The position numbers and the translations under genes were made by a program. Shown here in pieces: positions 12,940-58,308 of a DNA stretch of 64,000 bases. The stretch covers positions 1-64,000 of the IMG/VR virus record IMGVR_UViG_3300033145_003080; one strand, 5' to 3'. The number at the start of each line of letters is the position of its first letter. The first letter of the stretch is position 1. The DNA comes from a virus. The notes beneath the pieces were generated by a model. That model did no database searches, was not told the origin of the DNA, and saw only the letters and a list, made by a program, of their open reading frames with translations.

Positions 12940-13743
12940 ATGCCACCTATCGTAGATTTGCAGGAATATATAGACCATTCAGGCGGATGGGATTGGGAAG
13001 ACGCCCATGTATCTCAGGCTTACATTTCCCCTCAAGGTATTGACACAAAAGAATCGATTGCAATAAATGATATTGTTGAATCGGGAACCGTTCTTATCGC
13101 TGCAGGTCCATCAGACCTGGATAAAGCAGTGGAAGACCCTGATGGTTTTAGGGTTGTACCTATCGGCCTTATCGAAACAGCACAGATAAGTATGAATAAA
13201 CCGTTAAGCCGGATATTTGAAATCGGCTCGAAACTCAGCTATATCATACCCGGTCGTACCGTTGGTGGGATAAGCCTTAGCAGAGTATTCTTTGATGGCC
13301 CAAGCCTTTTGAAGGCTATCTATATGGGTGAGGTAAAGTCCGACTTTGCCACACAGGATAAAAAATTCGCCAAATTTGTATCGAACCCTTATTATATTAA
13401 TGGTGACGAAACTTATCAGAAATTCGCTAATATCGGTTCTGGTAACCTGGCGATGAACCTTGCTTCGTCTTTTTTTGAACAACCTATTGGTCTTGCGTTT
13501 TATTTTAAAGATCAACAGGATGATGTGGTAGGACAAACCTATTTTGAAGGATGTCGCGTCAGCACATTGAATATGGGTATATCTGCGAATATGAATGTGC
13601 TTACCGAATCTATCAATATGGAATTTATACGTTGCAGGCCTATCAACACTGCTGCATCGATAGACTATGTGAAGGGGGAAAATTTAGCTGATCTCAATAT
13701 TATTTCTGAACAGACGAATTGGGATTCCAGCGTTATTACATAA
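12940..13743 (+). CDS. Tail tube protein
   Basis: A 267-residue protein right after the sheath gene, with the strong ribosome site AAAGGAGG. It contains the tube-like block MNKPLSRIFEIGSKLSYIIP and GISLSRVFFDGPSLL, a beta-hairpin pattern seen in myovirus tube proteins, followed by a second strand-rich half. It would polymerise into the inner tube inside the sheath. The gene is followed by a bidirectional terminator. Confidence 0.8.
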   Translation: MPPIVDLQEYIDHSGGWDWEDAHVSQAYISPQGIDTKESIAINDIVESGTVLIAAGPSDLDKAVEDPDGFRVVPIGLIETAQISMNKPLSRIFEIGSKLSYIIPGRTVGGISLSRVFFDGPSLLKAIYMGEVKSDFATQDKKFAKFVSNPYYINGDETYQKFANIGSGNLAMNLASSFFEQPIGLAFYFKDQQDDVVGQTYFEGCRVSTLNMGISANMNVLTESINMEFIRCRPINTAASIDYVKGENLADLNIISEQTNWDSSVIT

Positions 13744-13765: not shown

Positions 13766-13801
13766 AAAAAAAAGAGAGCTTGAAATGGCTCTCTTTTTTT
13801 T
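13766..13801. terminator. Bidirectional intrinsic terminator
   Basis: AAGAGAGC (13772-13779) pairs with GCTCTCTT (13788-13795). A-run upstream and T-run downstream make it work on both strands. It ends the virion operon on the plus strand and the long noncoding transcript on the minus strand. Confidence 0.8.
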
Positions 13802-13803
13802 CC

Positions 13804-14685
13804 TCTAACTAAATTTCGAACATTATTCTAATCAACCCAAAACACAACCTCAAGGTGGCGGCTTGTACCGGAATTGCAGATCTCATCGGGGGTCGGTATT
13901 GTCCCCATGAAATGGGTTTTCGTAATTTGTCGAAGCAACAAATTGTAGAAATCTTAGAGGAAAATGAAACTCCAACTTAAATATAGCTAAACTTTGCTTT
14001 GAGACGCAACCCCGAAAGAGCGAGCAGAATTCGTCCGCGGGCCGTCATCTTCAGCAGACGCTTCAAAGACCATCGGGTCCCAGTCATCATCGCGTCGACC
14101 ACTCAGTGGTATTTTTTGCCTTGACGATACATCAAGTGTAAAATCTTGGAGTTAAATATACGAATTAAAAATAAGAAGGTGTGGAGATCGCTCCCCACAC
14201 CTCTTGCAGTAACGGCTCTAGCTGCAACTTGTCTCTGGATAATAAAAAAAGTTTTTTTATTTTCCGGAGACCTCCAATGGTCGCTGAAGCAGCGATGTAT
14301 CTTAGAACCTTCTGGAAAAGGAATTTCTCAAACTAAAGTTCGAATCGTTTGGCGAGGTACGGCTTCCCTTCGGCGCCTAAATGATAACACTTCAACTCCA
14401 GGTCGGGTCCCAGACGCAGATTTCCAAATCGATTGATCGGGAAAGTTGGATCCCCGCGGCAGCCAGCAGCTTCCGGATTCCGGGTGGATCCGAGCCAAAC
14501 CACCACCCCATAACGTGTCGTGTTTTGATTTGCTCTCAGCAAATCAACGACCAGTCTGAAGCGAACTCCGCTCCAGAGCGAGCTTCATGGCTGAGTATGG
14601 GGTGGTATAAGTAAACGCTGACGAAACGTCAACGCATTTATATCCTTTGAGAAAAAAAGGGGTAAAAATTAATTAACCCATTCAC
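13804..14685 (-). ncRNA. Giant structured noncoding RNA candidate (about 0.9 kb)
   Basis: No convincing gene, higher GC than its surroundings, and packed with complementary arms: ACCACCCCATA/TATGGGGTGGT closing a domain at about 14501-14607 that encloses GATTTGCT/AGCAAATC and GAAGC/GCTTC stems; a stem of about 19 bp GTCTC..GAGAC with A7/T7 arms near 14232-14272; AGGTGT/ACACCT near 14176-14203; TGACG/CGTCA near 14620; CCCAT/ATGGG near 13903; AATTTGT/ACAAATT near 13923. A phage-type promoter at 14693-14720 points into it and a terminator ends it. Size, ornateness and phage context recall GOLLD and ROOL RNAs; membership is untested. Confidence 0.6.
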
Positions 14686-14720
14686 TATAATAGTTATTTC
14701 AATTTTTAGCTTAAAATAAC
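14686..14720 (-). promoter_or_regulatory. Phage-type promoter for the long ncRNA
   Basis: On the minus strand GTTATT (14715-14720), exactly 16 bases, AATAAC (14693-14698), then TATTATAG. This fits the window-wide promoter pattern, including spacing. It overlaps the 3' end of the thioredoxin gene and fires towards 14685. Confidence 0.6.
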
Positions 14721-15014: not shown

Positions 15015-15551
15015 GTGCTCTGAAATATATCTTCAAGCATACCAGTCACTTCTTCTTTTACCGTTTTGGCTTTGCGTTTGGTTCCGGGAAAGAACTCTTT
15101 CATATATTTAGTTTCATTATTGCAATTAGGGCATGGTTTTCCGGTATCATCCCATGCACTACAGTAATCGCATCTCGACCTTCCGATACGTTCATCATCA
15201 ACGATTTCTTCAATATCGTTTTGATATATTCTTAATCCAACATTTGTTATATTGGCTATCGGCTTTGTGTTTAGCTGCTCTTTAAATAAATGTTCGGTAT
15301 CAATTTCAACCCACTGACCATTTATTAATTTAAGCTTTTCTGCGTAACTGCCAGAATATTTATTATGGCAATTTTCTTTCAGCCTTACTTTCAACCGGGT
15401 CCTCCTTTTCAATATCGTCGTAATATATTTTCTCAACCACGACTGGTGTTTCTTTATCACTATTCAAAGCATTGACGTTGTTGACAAAATGAGTAAATTT
15501 TTCAATAAAATCGATAGGGATAGACAGGAGGATATTAATCCTACCTTTCAT
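15011..15551 (-). pseudogene. Zinc-ribbon gene split by a +1 frame shift
   Basis: An ATG at 15551 overlaps the IscB stop (TAATG) and opens MKGRINILLSIPIDFIEKF..., ending at TAA at 15363 after 62 codons. The remainder continues in the +1 frame to 15011, with KLKLINGQWVEIDTEHLFKE and a four-cysteine knuckle CDYC...CPNC. The upstream part of the second frame (before about 15365) looks non-protein-like, so one gene of about 180 residues with a one-base shift is more likely than two overlapping genes. Function unknown. Confidence 0.5.
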
Positions 15552-16753
15552 TATCCAAGCCCCACGTTATAAAACTGAATTCTACAATATATTAAACCTT
15601 TCGGTCTCCACAATAATACACTTTTATTGTAGGAAGCCTGAAAATTATTATCAAAACTCGTCCTAAGTGTTATACACGCTTTTTTAAGACTTCTTATAGA
15701 ACCAATAACAACACCCTTTGTCCTATTAGACACTTTAATAATATCGTAATGTTTAAAACCATTCTTTTCAAAACATGTTTTTGTAGGATTGCTCTCCCAT
15801 ACCTTTGCTCTTTTTGGTATTATATTATAAATATCACTTTTGTATTCACTTGCACCAACCATTGCTGATGCATCGTGATAATGCTCTTTTTTTAATCCTA
15901 ATTTTTTTCTTGTCTTTGCAGTCATCCAACCAAAACATATCTTTACTATTCCAAATCTTTTTTTTAATTCATTAAATAAATACCATTTACCTTGTTGAAG
16001 GTGAGCCTGATATTTAAAGTGTTTAGGTTTTCTATTAAGTACCCAGGTGTCATTATGGAGATCTGTATGACACGTTTTACATAAAGTGATTCCATTGCTA
16101 ACCCTGTTTGTTCCCCCTTTTAATTTTGTATTTATGTGATGCGCTTGCAATTCATTTTTACACCTACAATGTTGACAGACATAATTGTCTCTCCATAAAA
16201 CCTTTTGTCTCCAATTGTTCCCTTCATACTCAGATAACTGATACTCTTTTCCTGTTAACTTATAACCAGCGCTAATTGAAGATATGTCAAACTGCCCCTG
16301 CTCAACAACACACTTAGTTATATTTAATCTCTTTTTAATATCATCAACTACCCTCAGAATTGATTCTTTCTTCTGTTTAATTGTCGGTGGCAACCAACCC
16401 TTTTTACCTCTATTTAAAAACCTTGCTTTACGGTGTCTTAAATTTCTTGATCTTCTTGCTTTTCGGTATTGCGCCCTCTGAAGCATTTTTCTTGAAACAT
16501 CCTGCCTTAATTGAATATTACCAGCAAATACTATTTTATTACCATGAGCTACTGATATTCCAACTATTTTCGCACCGTCATCAATTCCAACTTTAAATTC
16601 CCCAACAGGATTTTTAATTTCTTTATTCAATTGAATTGTAAAAGGTTCAACAGAATACACTTTAGCCCTACCGTTCTTCAGTAAAAGCCTGGCCCTTGCT
16701 CCATTCGTTGGAAGCAAAGGCTTGCCTCTACTGTCAATTACAAAAATAGACAT
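15551..16753 (-). CDS. iscB: IscB RNA-guided nuclease (complete)
   Basis: A 400-residue protein with all IscB parts in order: PLMP-type N-terminus (GKPLLPTNGARARLLLKNGR), RuvC-I D58 in VGIDDGAKIVGI, Arg-rich bridge helix (residues 90-115), RuvC-II E151 in CVVEQGQFDIS, HNH domain with CQHC (193-196), H205-H206 and CKTCH (225-229), RuvC-III HYHDASA (H293/D294), and a C-terminal target-interaction part. All catalytic residues are present, so it is predicted active. IscB nicks or cuts DNA guided by an omegaRNA usually encoded just upstream, and such a leader is present. The last residues after GLIY read into flanking DNA. Confidence 0.92.
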   Translation of the reverse strand: MSIFVIDSRGKPLLPTNGARARLLLKNGRAKVYSVEPFTIQLNKEIKNPVGEFKVGIDDGAKIVGISVAHGNKIVFAGNIQLRQDVSRKMLQRAQYRKARRSRNLRHRKARFLNRGKKGWLPPTIKQKKESILRVVDDIKKRLNITKCVVEQGQFDISSISAGYKLTGKEYQLSEYEGNNWRQKVLWRDNYVCQHCRCKNELQAHHINTKLKGGTNRVSNGITLCKTCHTDLHNDTWVLNRKPKHFKYQAHLQQGKWYLFNELKKRFGIVKICFGWMTAKTRKKLGLKKEHYHDASAMVGASEYKSDIYNIIPKRAKVWESNPTKTCFEKNGFKHYDIIKVSNRTKGVVIGSIRSLKKACITLRTSFDNNFQASYNKSVLLWRPKGLIYCRIQFYNVGLG

Positions 16754-16985
16754 TTAAGCTATCTCCTTTTAAGGTTACAGTGTTCTCGACAAAGACCGCC
16801 TGTTCTTTATATAAGCCCTTTCGAACATTCTCCAGAGCCATTAGAGCCTCAAGCTGAACAAACTCAAGGGTAACTATTCTTTCGAATAAACAGAAGTCGT
16901 AGCTGTAATATTTCACCCATAACAGTGGACTTAATTCCCAGCTTAGCCTTAAAGCTGTTCTATCAAAATCTGATAGATTTTAGTA
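16754..16985 (-). ncRNA. omegaRNA-like leader of IscB (HEARO type)
   Basis: About 230 bases directly upstream of iscB with no convincing gene (the 60-codon frame inside lacks protein character). It contains paired arms such as TCTATCA/TGATAGA (16959-16977), TTAGTAAA/TTTACTAA (16980-17007), a GTTCGAAAG turn near 16820 and an AAGGAGATAG ribosome site next to iscB. omegaRNAs are encoded immediately 5' of iscB, so position and structure agree. The guide would be the flanking sequence at the far (17000) end. Exact ends are not determined. Confidence 0.6.
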
Positions 16986-17003
16986 AATCTTTATAAATTT
17001 TTA

Positions 17004-17282
17004 CTAACTGTTATGAAGCCTTTCTGTTGTTTGTTCAAGATTTGGTTTTGATAATAATTCTATTAACTCTTTATATGACAAAGGCCTTCCTTTCTCTGTA
17101 AGATGTTCAATATCTCCAGCGCCAATAAAATAGCCTAATGGTAAATTCATTATTATATGGGCGAGCTTTTCCCGCGTTGCATTGTAATAATATTTTTTCA
17201 GAAAAATATAAAGGAACTCTTTAAATTTTGGCTCTACTAAAGAGTCGAAATTCGCCATTAACTCATCAATGTGTTGTGACAC
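17004..17282 (-). CDS. Hypothetical protein
   Basis: A 92-residue, mostly helical protein (MSQHIDELMANFDSLVEPKF...). It starts with GTG overlapping the upstream TAG (TAGTG), showing that TAG serves as a true stop there. It ends with tandem TAG TAA at the edge of the IscB element, so the element probably inserted just downstream without breaking it. No family recognised. Confidence 0.6.
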   Translation of the reverse strand: MSQHIDELMANFDSLVEPKFKEFLYIFLKKYYYNATREKLAHIIMNLPLGYFIGAGDIEHLTEKGRPLSYKELIELLSKPNLEQTTERLHNS

Positions 17283-17590
17283 TATTTTTCCTTATTTTTC
17301 TTCTGTCGAAAAACCGGTATTCTAGTCTGGCATGTCGGACATACAATAGATGCGTTCTCATTATCATACAGTGCAAGCCATACATTTTTACACAGGTGAC
17401 AACGGACGTGTTTGGTAAGATATCCTGCTTTTGTGTACTTCTGCAGTCTGATTTCCTTTTTGATTGCCTCTATAATATTGGCAGTTACGATGTCGTCCAC
17501 ACGAAGTTCCCTTGCACGCTTTTCTTCATATGCTTTAAGCATCGCCGTCATAAGGCTTATATCAGAGTTTGTTTCAAAAAAAATTAACAT
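17282..17590 (-). CDS. Small zinc-ribbon protein
   Basis: A 102-residue protein with a helical N-terminal half (AYEEKRARELRVDDIV) and a C-terminal zinc ribbon CHLC...CPTC, ending in a Lys-rich tail. It could bind nucleic acid. Stop TAG overlaps the GTG of the next gene. A short TTG-started frame of 20 codons with AAGGAG lies just upstream and overlaps its start, a possible leader peptide. Confidence 0.6.
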   Translation of the reverse strand: MLIFFETNSDISLMTAMLKAYEEKRARELRVDDIVTANIIEAIKKEIRLQKYTKAGYLTKHVRCHLCKNVWLALYDNENASIVCPTCQTRIPVFRQKKNKEK

Positions 17591-17658
17591 AATAAATCCT
17601 AACGCTTACCTTGCTTTTGGATCTTTTGCTGCAAACCAAAATTACTCCTTACTTTATA

Positions 17659-17686
17659 GTTATTACAACAAATCTGCAAATATCAC
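17659..17686 (-). promoter_or_regulatory. Phage-type promoter
   Basis: GTGATA (17681-17686), 16 bases, AATAAC (17659-17664), then TATAAAG. It follows the terminator at 17690-17726 and precedes the 17590 gene. Confidence 0.6.
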
Positions 17687-17689
17687 AGA

Positions 17690-17726
17690 TAAAAATATAG
17701 GTAGCAGGATTTTTCCCACTACCTAT
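17690..17726 (-). terminator. Intrinsic terminator
   Basis: ATAGGTAG/CTACCTAT stem (17697-17704 with 17719-17726), with ATTTTTATC after it on the minus strand. It ends transcription coming from the proline-rich gene. Confidence 0.65.
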
Positions 17727-17766
17727 AATATACAATAAAATATTGAAAATTACACTAAGTCTTATT

Positions 17767-18351
17767 TTAAGACCCTTCTCCTGTGTCAGGAGCCGCTCCT
17801 GTGTTGTCATCTTTTGCATCAGACTTTTGATCACCCGGTGTCTTTTTCTCAGCCTCATCATCAGCATTGTCCGATTTTACAATAGACAACGGCGTCTCTT
17901 TGCTTGGTGTTGGTTGTTGAGACGACGTTTGTGGTAATTGGGATTTCTCTAACGGTTCCGGGCACCCTTCTTGTTGAGGACCTGTGTTTTGTGGCGGTTC
18001 GTACGGCGGCAATGGTGGTTGGGTTGTCATCTCTGGTGGTATCTGCGGCGCTCCTGGCGGCTGCGCCGGAAGAGGTGTCTGTGGTGGAGGATAATCCTGC
18101 GGCGATTGTGGCGCCTGCGAAAGATCAGGAGGTCTAGTTGACTGCTGCGGTTGTTGCATTGGCTGTGGTATCGTTTGTTGTGGGCTAGATGCAATTTTTA
18201 CACTGAATGCTTGTGCACCCTGCTGATTCAATGAAAATTCGAATCCAGGAGTGTACATACGGACCGTTTCCGCCTTGTAGCTCAATGGGTGTATAAATAG
18301 AGACCCCCATCTGACAATTAAATCATCACGGATATCAATGATAATTCTCAC
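17767..18351 (-). CDS. Proline/glutamine-rich low-complexity protein
   Basis: A 194-residue protein. The first 55 residues form a small beta domain (MRIIIDIRDDLIVRWGSLFI...). Residues 58-160 are almost only Pro/Gln/Thr/Ser (PPPQTPLPAQPPGAP), and the last 35 are acidic. It is probably disordered, possibly a tether or virion-surface protein. Base composition over the repeat is GC-richer than its neighbours because of Pro codons. Confidence 0.6.
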   Translation of the reverse strand: MRIIIDIRDDLIVRWGSLFIHPLSYKAETVRMYTPGFEFSLNQQGAQAFSVKIASSPQQTIPQPMQQPQQSTRPPDLSQAPQSPQDYPPPQTPLPAQPPGAPQIPPEMTTQPPLPPYEPPQNTGPQQEGCPEPLEKSQLPQTSSQQPTPSKETPLSIVKSDNADDEAEKKTPGDQKSDAKDDNTGAAPDTGEGS

Positions 18352-18378
18352 TGACCCTCCTTCTGTTGGTTAAAAAAG

Positions 18379-18696
18379 TTAATTAATAAAAAATACATTA
18401 ACGGTATGCAAATGGTAATACAAAACTCTTTTTTGGTCTTCGAGCTCCTTCCCACGTAAATGATAATGTTGCTTTTCTATATGCGCAGCCTTCATTTGTT
18501 CACATTTCTTCTTAGCCTTTTTTTCACTACCGATGACAACGGCCTCTACCGAATCATTACAACATATCACATGAATTGGTTTTGATAGTATTTCGTTAAG
18601 CTTTAATTTAAGCATGTTCCATCTATGCGCCCAGCCAGCACCTTTTACTGGATATCTTTCTTCAATCTTCTCAAATAATTTATCAACAGGTTTCAT
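18379..18696 (-). CDS. Hypothetical basic protein
   Basis: A 105-residue protein with a helical amphipathic N-terminus (MKPVDKLFEKIEERYP), a strand CCNDSVEAVVIG, then a Lys-rich helix. It lies 29 bases after the ligase stop in the same direction. No family recognised. Confidence 0.55.
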   Translation of the reverse strand: MKPVDKLFEKIEERYPVKGAGWAHRWNMLKLKLNEILSKPIHVICCNDSVEAVVIGSEKKAKKKCEQMKAAHIEKQHYHLRGKELEDQKRVLYYHLHTVNVFFIN

Positions 18697-35529: not shown

Positions 35530-36390
35530 TTATTTCACCTTGTATGGTTTAGATATAATCTCAGACAATTCAGGCCCTTTCCAATATGGCATGATCCATT
35601 GATATCTTCGCAATTTACGACCCACACCATAAACCTGATGCGTCCAATGGCCACGGACAAGAAACCTTTTATCTAAATTCCACTTTTTTACATGGCGTTT
35701 AGGTGTAAAGCGGCTTGGTGGTCTAAGTCGTATAAACTCCCTTGTAACCTTCTTACCTTTACTAACTTTGTATTTTTTCCTCACAACTGACTGGGTGTCA
35801 TATGCATCTCTTCCTGGCTCATTAATATACAGCACTGAATTTATAAATATATTCAGTACTTTCGGCACCAACTCTTTAACTCTATGATATTTTGATCCCA
35901 CCTCATTTTCCGCCCAATCTCTCCATGAAGATGAGCTTTTTATCGAAATATCAAACCAACCTATAGTTTCAACACCCTTACCATTAACTGGGTATATTGG
36001 CATTATTAGAGAATCAGATTCCCTATCATCATTAAGCTGATAATGGTTTGTTGCCAGGATCGCCTTATCACTCATATACATAACACTGAATATATCTACG
36101 TTATCCTCATCATCATCATCAGTCAGGATATTAGTATTAAATAATCTCAAGTCTCCTTCAATTATAAAATTGTTAAATGGCATATTGATATCGGCCAACT
36201 TAAAATCTAGTGGCACATCAGTATTAACAAACGCCTCTATTAAATCTTTTGATAAAATAAAGGTTTTCATACCAGTCTTTTTCCATATATCAATAAGCGC
36301 CAAAAATGAAGCATATGGCCGATACTGCCCGTCAGAACCATTTGTTATTATAAAATCTTCAAGAACTCTAATTCTTTTTAATAAATTCAT
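35530..36390 (-). CDS. Paralogue A, C-terminus like AcrVA2-type proteins
   Basis: A 286-residue protein. It shares with the next gene the motifs FILSKDLIEAF, LYINEPGR, and the C-terminal VRGHWTHQVYGVGRKLRRY followed by PYWKGPELSEI. A C-terminal RGHW-x-x-Q-x-x-G-x-GR phrase followed by WI-x-P is, from memory, characteristic of a widespread mobile-element family that includes homologues of the anti-CRISPR AcrVA2; whether these two inhibit anything is unknown. Start ATG 36390 chosen by alignment with the paralogue. Confidence 0.5.
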   Translation of the reverse strand: MNLLKRIRVLEDFIITNGSDGQYRPYASFLALIDIWKKTGMKTFILSKDLIEAFVNTDVPLDFKLADINMPFNNFIIEGDLRLFNTNILTDDDDEDNVDIFSVMYMSDKAILATNHYQLNDDRESDSLIMPIYPVNGKGVETIGWFDISIKSSSSWRDWAENEVGSKYHRVKELVPKVLNIFINSVLYINEPGRDAYDTQSVVRKKYKVSKGKKVTREFIRLRPPSRFTPKRHVKKWNLDKRFLVRGHWTHQVYGVGRKLRRYQWIMPYWKGPELSEIISKPYKVK

Positions 36391-36392
36391 AA

Positions 36393-37289
36393 TCACTCCA
36401 CCTTATATGTTTTTGATACAATCTCAGATAATTCCGGACCTTTCCAGTATGGCAATATCCATATTCTTTTTCTAAATGCACGTCCCTTACCGTATGCCTG
36501 CCTTGTCCAGTGACCTCTTACTGTAAACCGTTTCTCTATTTTTCTTCCCGTTCCACTATTCAGTATTGACAAGTAACGTTTCGGTGGTTTAAGTAAAATA
36601 TACTGACTCTTTACCGTTCTCTTCTGACCTTTTATTTTATATTTAGAATGACCAACTGATTCAGTATCTTCTTTTTTTCTTCCAGGCTCGTTGATATACA
36701 TTATTGCATTGAAAAAGATATTAATAGATCGCTGAGCCTCCGGTATCGTAACTACACCCCTATACTGGTTAGGCTTTTTTGATTTTTCACATGCCGATTC
36801 AATCGATTCGTTATTGAGGAGATTAACCCACATGTGATCAAGACCAAATCCATCAAGACCAGGAGATAGGCCCGAAATGGATACATCCCAGGCAACATCG
36901 TTTTTAATCTCCCCATTCCTTGTTACAAGAAGTGTCTCATTATGAGTTATAGCATTACTATTTATAAATAATAAAGCGTGCACATCAGCATTATCATTTT
37001 CACGTATATTAACTTGAAATAGAGGTTTCTCACCTTCGATAAGAAATGTATCGAACGGATAGTGAAATTCTCCAGGTGTGATATCCATTGGGACATCTGT
37101 CAATGCAAATGCGTCAATTAGCTCTTTTGAAAGACGAAATGTTTTTGCACCTAATCCTAACCATAACTGTAATTTTGTATACAGCGCAGTAAAGTCATAT
37201 GTTACATCTTCAACGGCCTGGCTTGATGGAGTATACTTCATTGAATTGATAAGCTCTTTTGTTTCCTCCATTCTTTTAAATATATTCAC
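36393..37289 (-). CDS. Paralogue B, C-terminus like AcrVA2-type proteins
   Basis: A 298-residue protein. The GTG at 37289 has AGGAGG five bases upstream, and its first residues (NIFKRM) align with MNLLKRI of paralogue A, supporting this start. Shared C-terminus VRGHWTRQAYGKGRAFRKR and PYWKGPELSEIVSKTYKV. The tandem arrangement with a TGA next to the downstream start indicates duplication in place followed by divergence (roughly a third identical). Confidence 0.5.
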   Translation of the reverse strand: MNIFKRMEETKELINSMKYTPSSQAVEDVTYDFTALYTKLQLWLGLGAKTFRLSKELIDAFALTDVPMDITPGEFHYPFDTFLIEGEKPLFQVNIRENDNADVHALLFINSNAITHNETLLVTRNGEIKNDVAWDVSISGLSPGLDGFGLDHMWVNLLNNESIESACEKSKKPNQYRGVVTIPEAQRSINIFFNAIMYINEPGRKKEDTESVGHSKYKIKGQKRTVKSQYILLKPPKRYLSILNSGTGRKIEKRFTVRGHWTRQAYGKGRAFRKRIWILPYWKGPELSEIVSKTYKVE

Positions 37290-37370
37290 ATTATCCTCCT
37301 GATTAAAAAAGTGTCTGCGCATGGAAGCTACCATCACTTTTGTTTCTTCAATTTTTCTGAATATGTTTCA

Positions 37371-57823: not shown

Positions 57824-57897
57824 CCGCCCGTAAGAGAATCGAACTCTTTCAATTAAGGAATTTAGAGTTCCTCGCCTTCCCATTTGGCTAACGGGCG
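57824..57897 (-). tRNA. Amber suppressor tRNA, anticodon CUA
   Basis: Acceptor CGCCCGT/ACGGGCG (7 bp), D arm GCC-AAATGGGAA-GGC, anticodon arm AGGAA-CTCTAAA-TTCCT giving CUA at 34-36 with U33 and A37, T arm AAGAG-TTCGATT-CTCTT, discriminator G, no encoded CCA. All arms pair perfectly; only the variable region (7 bases) is slightly long. It should read UAG codons. The charged amino acid is unknown; G73 would suit glutamine. Confidence 0.85.
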
Positions 57898-58234: not shown

Positions 58235-58308
58235 TGGTGGCAGGGGTAGGATTTGAACCTACGCAAACCCGTGAAACCGGGCATGTCTTTGCGCTGCATC
58301 ACCCCGCC
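58235..58308 (-). tRNA. tRNA-like gene with encoded CCA, possible Glu (UUC)
   Basis: Acceptor GGCGGGG/CCCTGCC with one G-U pair, A73, CCA encoded, T arm GTAGG-TTCAAAT-CCTAC perfect. D arm has only ATG/CAT and no GG in its loop. Anticodon stem GCCCG/CGGGT leaves a six-base loop GTTTCA (UUC if read as in Glu tRNAs). CGCAAA and TTTGCG could pair to form one long hairpin instead. 74 bases. Confidence 0.5.

Follow-up and report, generated by a model that had tools for sequence, protein, structure and literature searches.

A phage RNA organised as a tandem array of retron-like modules, probably templates used in trans by one reverse transcriptase

The 64,000-nucleotide stretch of viral DNA analysed here (the window, positions 1 to 64,000 of the 149-kb IMG/VR record IMGVR_UViG_3300033145_003080, called G000 below) carries between 13.77 and 14.70 kb a real structured RNA of the minus strand, which is not a single fold but a tandem array of three canonical modules and one atypical module. 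These modules have the layout of retron template RNAs, and the best reading, which we hold with high confidence, is that of a phage retron in which a single reverse transcriptase (RT) serves many template RNAs in trans, the RNA of the window being a tandem array of such templates. Retrons are bacterial elements making hybrid RNA-DNA molecules; they are known as anti-phage systems in which one RT copies one adjacent RNA, and the usual definition places the msr, the msd and the RT in one cassette. The situation described here differs from that scheme in the number and in the placement of the templates.

An earlier note on this DNA had described positions 13804-14720 as a gene-free and GC-enriched stretch full of nested complementary arms and bounded by a promoter and a terminator. 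Our analysis agrees with this description: no gene-like open reading frame lies within the stretch, the GC content of its core is 0.46-0.56 against 0.28-0.40 in the immediate surroundings, a promoter-like motif and an intrinsic terminator are present at its two ends (Table 1) and the arms are real, organised as a repeated module and not as one fold. For the minus strand the folding energy is -298.3 kcal/mol, compared with a mean of -250.3 kcal/mol for dinucleotide shuffles (z -5.66, reached by 0 of 20 shuffles), and the plus strand also beats its dinucleotide shuffles, by less (z -4.02). The RNA was assigned to the minus strand because of its G.U pairs, for example the U.G step under the triloop, which is the commonest step at this place and is present in 23 of 50 modules. 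A phage sigma-70 region 3-like protein, encoded at L008 5831-6523 (+), may serve the conserved promoter-like motif.

Using as query the neighbouring gene at 12940-13743, presumed from its location to encode a virion protein, we retrieved two IMG/VR contigs, L002 (from record G002) and L003 (from G005), with a homologous stretch at the corresponding position; the copy of the RNA in L002 folds with a z of -8.9. When the window, L002 and L003 were aligned with the named structure, 94.7% of the cells were paired and 20 pairs had changed on both sides, against 8.4 in shuffled alignments and 1-6 with the partners slid, so that the covariation in homologues, a test set beforehand, was indeed observed. 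The protein-coding alternative was also looked for and a coding role was ruled out by the lack of a conserved frame and by the frequent indels between homologues. The proposal of the earlier note, an undescribed, structured phage RNA of about 0.9 kb that is encoded on the minus strand between a promoter-like element and a terminator of its own, is thus supported.

From 5' to 3', a module consists of a closing helix a1/a2 whose a1 strand ends in AA and is followed by a G, a short linker, a hairpin of 7-10 bp capped by a G(NNN)C triloop (UUU being the commonest loop), variable arms and, immediately ahead of a2, the sequence UCNAU..UUAG. Modules I, III and IV of the window conform to this layout. 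Module II has no AG directly ahead of a2, is not matched by the strict descriptor of the module and is degenerate in L002.

Table 1. Position of the features of the RNA in the window, and of the module arrays found in related records
Feature	Position	Strand	Remarks
Whole transcription unit, promoter-like element to terminator	13766..14699	-	Fold z -5.66; compensatory changes in L002 and L003
AT-rich inverted repeat ahead of the AATAACTATTATAG motif	~14692-14720
Promoter-like motif AATAACTATTATAG	14685..14698	-	Single copy in the 149-kb record; motif also at the corresponding place in G002, G005 and G016
Module I	14324..14654	-	Strict descriptor match
Module I, a1 TTTCTCAAA	14646-14654	-	Putative priming G at 14645
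Module I, hairpin, 9 bp, G(UUU)C triloop	14615..14635	-	4 of 9 pairs double-changed, three sequences
Module I, large arm ACCACCCCATA/TATGGGGTGGT with inner hairpins	14502..14606	-	4 of 11 pairs double-changed; all cells paired
Module I, a2 TTTGAGAAA	14324-14332	-	TTAG ahead of a2
Module II, atypical, closing helix GGTTCTA/TAGAGCC	14214..14309	-	3 of 7 helix pairs double-changed
Module II, hairpin	14281-14296	-	G(CUU)C triloop
Linker hairpin GGTGTGGGGA/TCTCCACACC, between modules II and III	14178..14201	-	In all three homologues; 86.7% of cells paired, zero double changes
Module III, a1 AACTCCAA, a2 TTGGAGTT	13968..14153	-	Strict descriptor match; TAAG ahead of a2
Module III, putative priming G	14145	-
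Module III, hairpin	14120-14136	-	G(UAU)C triloop
Module IV, a1 TTTTCCTCTAA, a2 TTAGAGGAAAA	13798..13964	-	Strict descriptor match; TTAG ahead of a2
Module IV, putative priming G	13953	-
Module IV, hairpin	13924-13944	-	G(CUU)C triloop; 4 of 9 pairs double-changed
Intrinsic terminator, bidirectional	13766..13801	-	Directly after a2 of module IV; from sequence; conserved in L002 and L003
Module array in G002	113910-115101
Module array in G005	63396-64400
Module array in G016	16283-18662
Module array in G014	74396-75610
Module array in G015	152530-154315

Wider protein scans brought in more divergent phages. In most of them, a gene-free stretch with a strong fold (z -5.9 to -10.1), often adjoining a thioredoxin-like gene, again lies next to the counterpart of the gene at 12940-13743. 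No clear sequence similarity was found between the folded stretches of these divergent phages and the RNA of the window; the module layout is common to seven divergent lineages at this locus, and the number of modules differs among relatives, with single modules also present elsewhere in the genomes. A nucleotide search of cultured phages with the RNA of the window yielded no similar DNA. An exact-motif scan of the genome contigs gave a single match, which was discarded as it lies inside a coding frame.

The strict descriptor finds four matches in the 149-kb record, three of them being modules of the array, with no other match inside the window, and one, elsewhere in the record, being doubtful. 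Over 1.77 Mb of the clade it gives 70 matches, where 20 dinucleotide shuffles give 11 on average (range 5-17), and two distantly related cultured phages (150 kb) give three. After setting aside the matches that look like chance, about 53 convincing modules remain in 11 records; they stand singly or in arrays (Table 1) and nearly all are intergenic. Scattered matches of a loose descriptor in some records, such as those at G000 20841 and in G011 and G010, were also taken for chance. As a positive control, the Ec86 RNA (a 100% match in 48 E. coli genomes) was picked up by a relaxed descriptor. The G following a1 is found in all 53 modules by requirement, since the strict descriptor demands it; when it is not required, it is present in 66% of the real matches against 40% in shuffles, and demanding the helix and the hairpin alone makes AA|G and UUAG|UU appear in the real matches and not in the shuffled ones. 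Within the fourteen bases ahead of a2, UCNAU..AG occurs in 37 of the 53 modules, where 3.1 would be expected. Among 50 distinct modules, 12 of 13 helix pairs are double-changed, with up to six pair types; the 100% pairing of the closing helix comes partly by construction, because these helices were chosen for their complementarity, but the diversity of pair types is not a product of that selection. A CCCGA motif shared by the cis and trans msd was considered and rejected for lack of enrichment, being present in 9 modules where 6.3 would be expected. Adjoining the second module array of G002, a gene at 112829-113896 encodes a conserved protein of about 356 amino acids (MLIKGLTH...RGKISTGYAP), with equivalents in G005, G007, G009 and G015.

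A retron-family RT, one per genome, is encoded in 10 of the 20 records, that is in 10 of the 19 relatives, including all six relatives longer than 120 kb; G001 and G004, which both bear the RT, look like near-copies. This RT matches the PADLOC model retron RT_XIII (7e-66) and the NCBIfam model retron_St85_RT (2e-62, a score below that model's own cut-off), and models of group II and DRT enzymes score far lower. Its nearest PDB structure is the Ec86 RT, with 27% identity, with which it has in common the YADD and NAxxH motifs, invariant in nine RTs of the clade. The VTG motif of region Y is replaced by (I/V/T/L)CG, and exceptions to VTG are known among retron RTs (PMC6868368). The RT gene is overlapped by a gene for a DHH-type phosphoesterase, the DHH domain being N-terminal, and the two form a conserved unit in the relatives (L158 297-2460, with equivalents L155-L164). 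In cultured phages, the DHH protein had no match and the retron-like RTs are distant and belong to other kinds of phage.

At a distance of 0.7-0.9 kb downstream of the RT and on the same strand, G003, G016, G006 and G001 carry an Ec86-like msr-msd with two hairpins, and similar two-hairpin RNAs are present in G002, G005 and G015; searching Rfam with this cis RNA and with the relatives of the window, at gathering and at permissive thresholds, returned nothing relevant. In G002 and G005 the array homologous to that of the window lies at least 33 kb from the RT, near which the separate cis RNA stands alone. G006 has the RT, and its 60-kb fragment contains no convincing array module.

In the window's own 149-kb record, neither the RT nor the DHH gene was found. 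This record is colinear with that of its closest relative, G002, except for a block of about 42 kb (G002 72.8-115.3 kb) present only in the latter, which holds the DHH gene at 89.5 kb, the RT at 90.6-91.6 kb and an array of four modules at 113.9-115.1 kb. The ends of G000 flank exactly this block and are inverted copies of one sequence resembling the 3' end of the IscB-type gene at 15551-16753, and because of these inverted copies the contig very probably broke at that repeat. From the arrangement in G002 we infer that the phage of the window also encodes the RT.

A review of retrons provides three rules with which the modules can be compared: the msr-msd transcript is closed by pairing of its 5' and 3' ends, the G priming DNA synthesis lies within the inner end of the 5' strand or immediately after it, and the msr stem to which the RT of Eco1 binds has 8 bp and a UUU loop (PMC6868368). 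The modules fit all three, with their paired ends, their G after a1 and their short triloop stem. The context of the putative priming G is mostly AGA, AGG or AGU (AAGA/AAGG/AAGU) and not the usual AGC; other exceptions, CAGA and ACGC, are known (PMC6868368). Compared with Retron Eco1 (Ec86), the likeness extends from the a1/a2 helix and the G after a1 to the 8-bp msr stem with its UUU triloop and the structured msd. The differences are that Ec86 has two msr hairpins, like the cis RNAs of the clade, whereas the modules of the array have one, that its priming context is TAGC against AAG(A/G/U) in the array, and that the array puts several modules in one transcript, far from the RT gene and with no known effector as a neighbour. 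Retron-Nex1 (Ne160), the only precedent we met for msr-msd copies without a nearby RT, also has repeated copies with no RT within a kilobase (PMC6868368), but these are duplicated bacterial repeats, whereas the modules described here have diverged strongly, are scattered over phage genomes and keep their positions from lineage to lineage. Retrons on phage-like elements are known from the retronphage phiR73 (Ec73) and other prophages (PMC6868368); these have one RT and one cis msr-msd, unlike the large uncultured tailed phages studied here with their many trans modules. The literature consulted, whose coverage was thin for subscription papers and preprints, yielded no phage carrying several msr-msd units in trans. 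The array fails the test of a contiguous msr-msd-RT cassette, and for this reason we do not class it among the canonical retrons; presumably it works like a retron template RNA placed in trans.

The following scenario can be proposed. A promoter at about 14690 would give one transcript containing modules I, II (the atypical one), III and IV and the terminator. In each module a1 and a2 would pair, the G right after a1 would provide the 2'-OH as the putative 2'-5' priming nucleotide, the triloop hairpin would be the stem-loop recognised by the RT, and the arms between this hairpin and a2 would form the template (msd), whose copying would start at the conserved UUAG beside a2 and proceed into the arms. 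The RT, encoded elsewhere in the genome beside the DHH phosphoesterase and close to a two-hairpin msr-msd of its own, would use the array and the other dispersed modules in trans, producing during infection a set of different branched RNA-DNA hybrids. Recognition of the modules by the RT in trans and msDNA synthesis from them are suggested by the module signature together with the RT family, and the DHH protein may process the products or be a partner of the system. Since retrons are defence systems, the most likely guess for the role, a speculative one, is a conflict with the defences of the host or of rival phages through decoy or sensor DNA. The complete picture, in which the clade runs a many-template retron made of one RT, a DHH partner, a cis msr-msd and some 5 to 10 divergent trans templates in arrays by virion or accessory genes, with hybrids that counter host or rival-phage defence, has in our opinion an even chance of being right.

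Among the alternatives, the one that survives best, although we consider it unlikely, is that these retron-shaped phage RNAs bind the RT or another protein without being copied, as decoys, regulators or degenerating relics of duplicated retrons. It would agree with the single msr hairpin and the non-AGC priming context, unlike those of known substrates, with the decay of module II and with the putative status of the DNA product of the array modules. But in about 50 modules the differences within a1/a2 are compensatory, and the sequence of the would-be start site is conserved in 37 of 53, and relics would lose just this pairing and this sequence. Much less probable is a single large ornate RNA forming a homo-oligomer, of the GOLLD or ROOL kind to which the earlier note likened the stretch: GOLLD and ROOL are large structured phage RNAs of similar size (PMC12286853), and the size, the phage origin and the strong fold of the RNA recall them. 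However, Rfam covariance models found no family for the RNA of the window at gathering scores, and the check proposed by the note (GOLLD, ROOL, OLE, HEARO, group I and II introns) gave no match even at permissive thresholds, with E up to 5. Unlike these RNAs, the RNA of the window is a modular tandem linked to a reverse transcriptase; it splits into independent closed modules, found elsewhere singly and in arrays of differing length, and in a relative (L003 7207-9110) a 1.9-kb element with a TnpB-like gene has inserted into an AU-rich linker without disrupting the modules on either side. Of the note's overall interpretation, the structured minus-strand RNA stands, therefore, and the single GOLLD/ROOL-like RNA does not. 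Finally, it is extremely improbable that the RNA serves as a guide (omegaRNA/reRNA) for the IscB or TnpB elements common in these phages, despite the RRXRR-HNH (IscB-type) gene at 15551-16753 (-), 0.85 kb upstream on the same strand, and the frequent TnpB-like genes, as there is no HEARO match and no consistent linkage, modules occur in relatives with no adjoining IscB gene (L043, L051, L054) and the layout appears to differ.

With the phage retron as the preferred reading, whole phages appear to own retron machinery whose template RNAs were multiplied, diversified and spread in trans. If this is true, such phages produce panels of branched single-stranded DNA themselves, and ways in which a phage might jam or mimic retrons and other DNA-sensing defences become testable; the clade would also offer many natural templates for one RT, useful for learning what a retron RT requires. 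Some of the large structured phage RNAs that have no family may likewise be retron arrays.

Several minor observations were made on the same genomes. Two tRNAs are encoded in the window. The one at 57824-57897 (-) was called as tRNA-Pyl; its anticodon is CUA, which makes it a likely amber suppressor. The other, at 58235-58308 (-), has an ambiguous anticodon. The same record carries a phage tmRNA with the tag ARQDIAVI (L007 16244-16644 (-), about 80.2-80.6 kb of the record), and the relative L040 has a tmRNA too, with tRNAs close to the RNA locus. The window also encodes, at 35530-36396 and 36393-37337 (-), tandem paralogous proteins with the conserved C-terminus RGHWT..YWKGPELSEI.SK.YKV, a homologue of which (L043 6354-7271 (-)) lies directly upstream of the L043 RNA.
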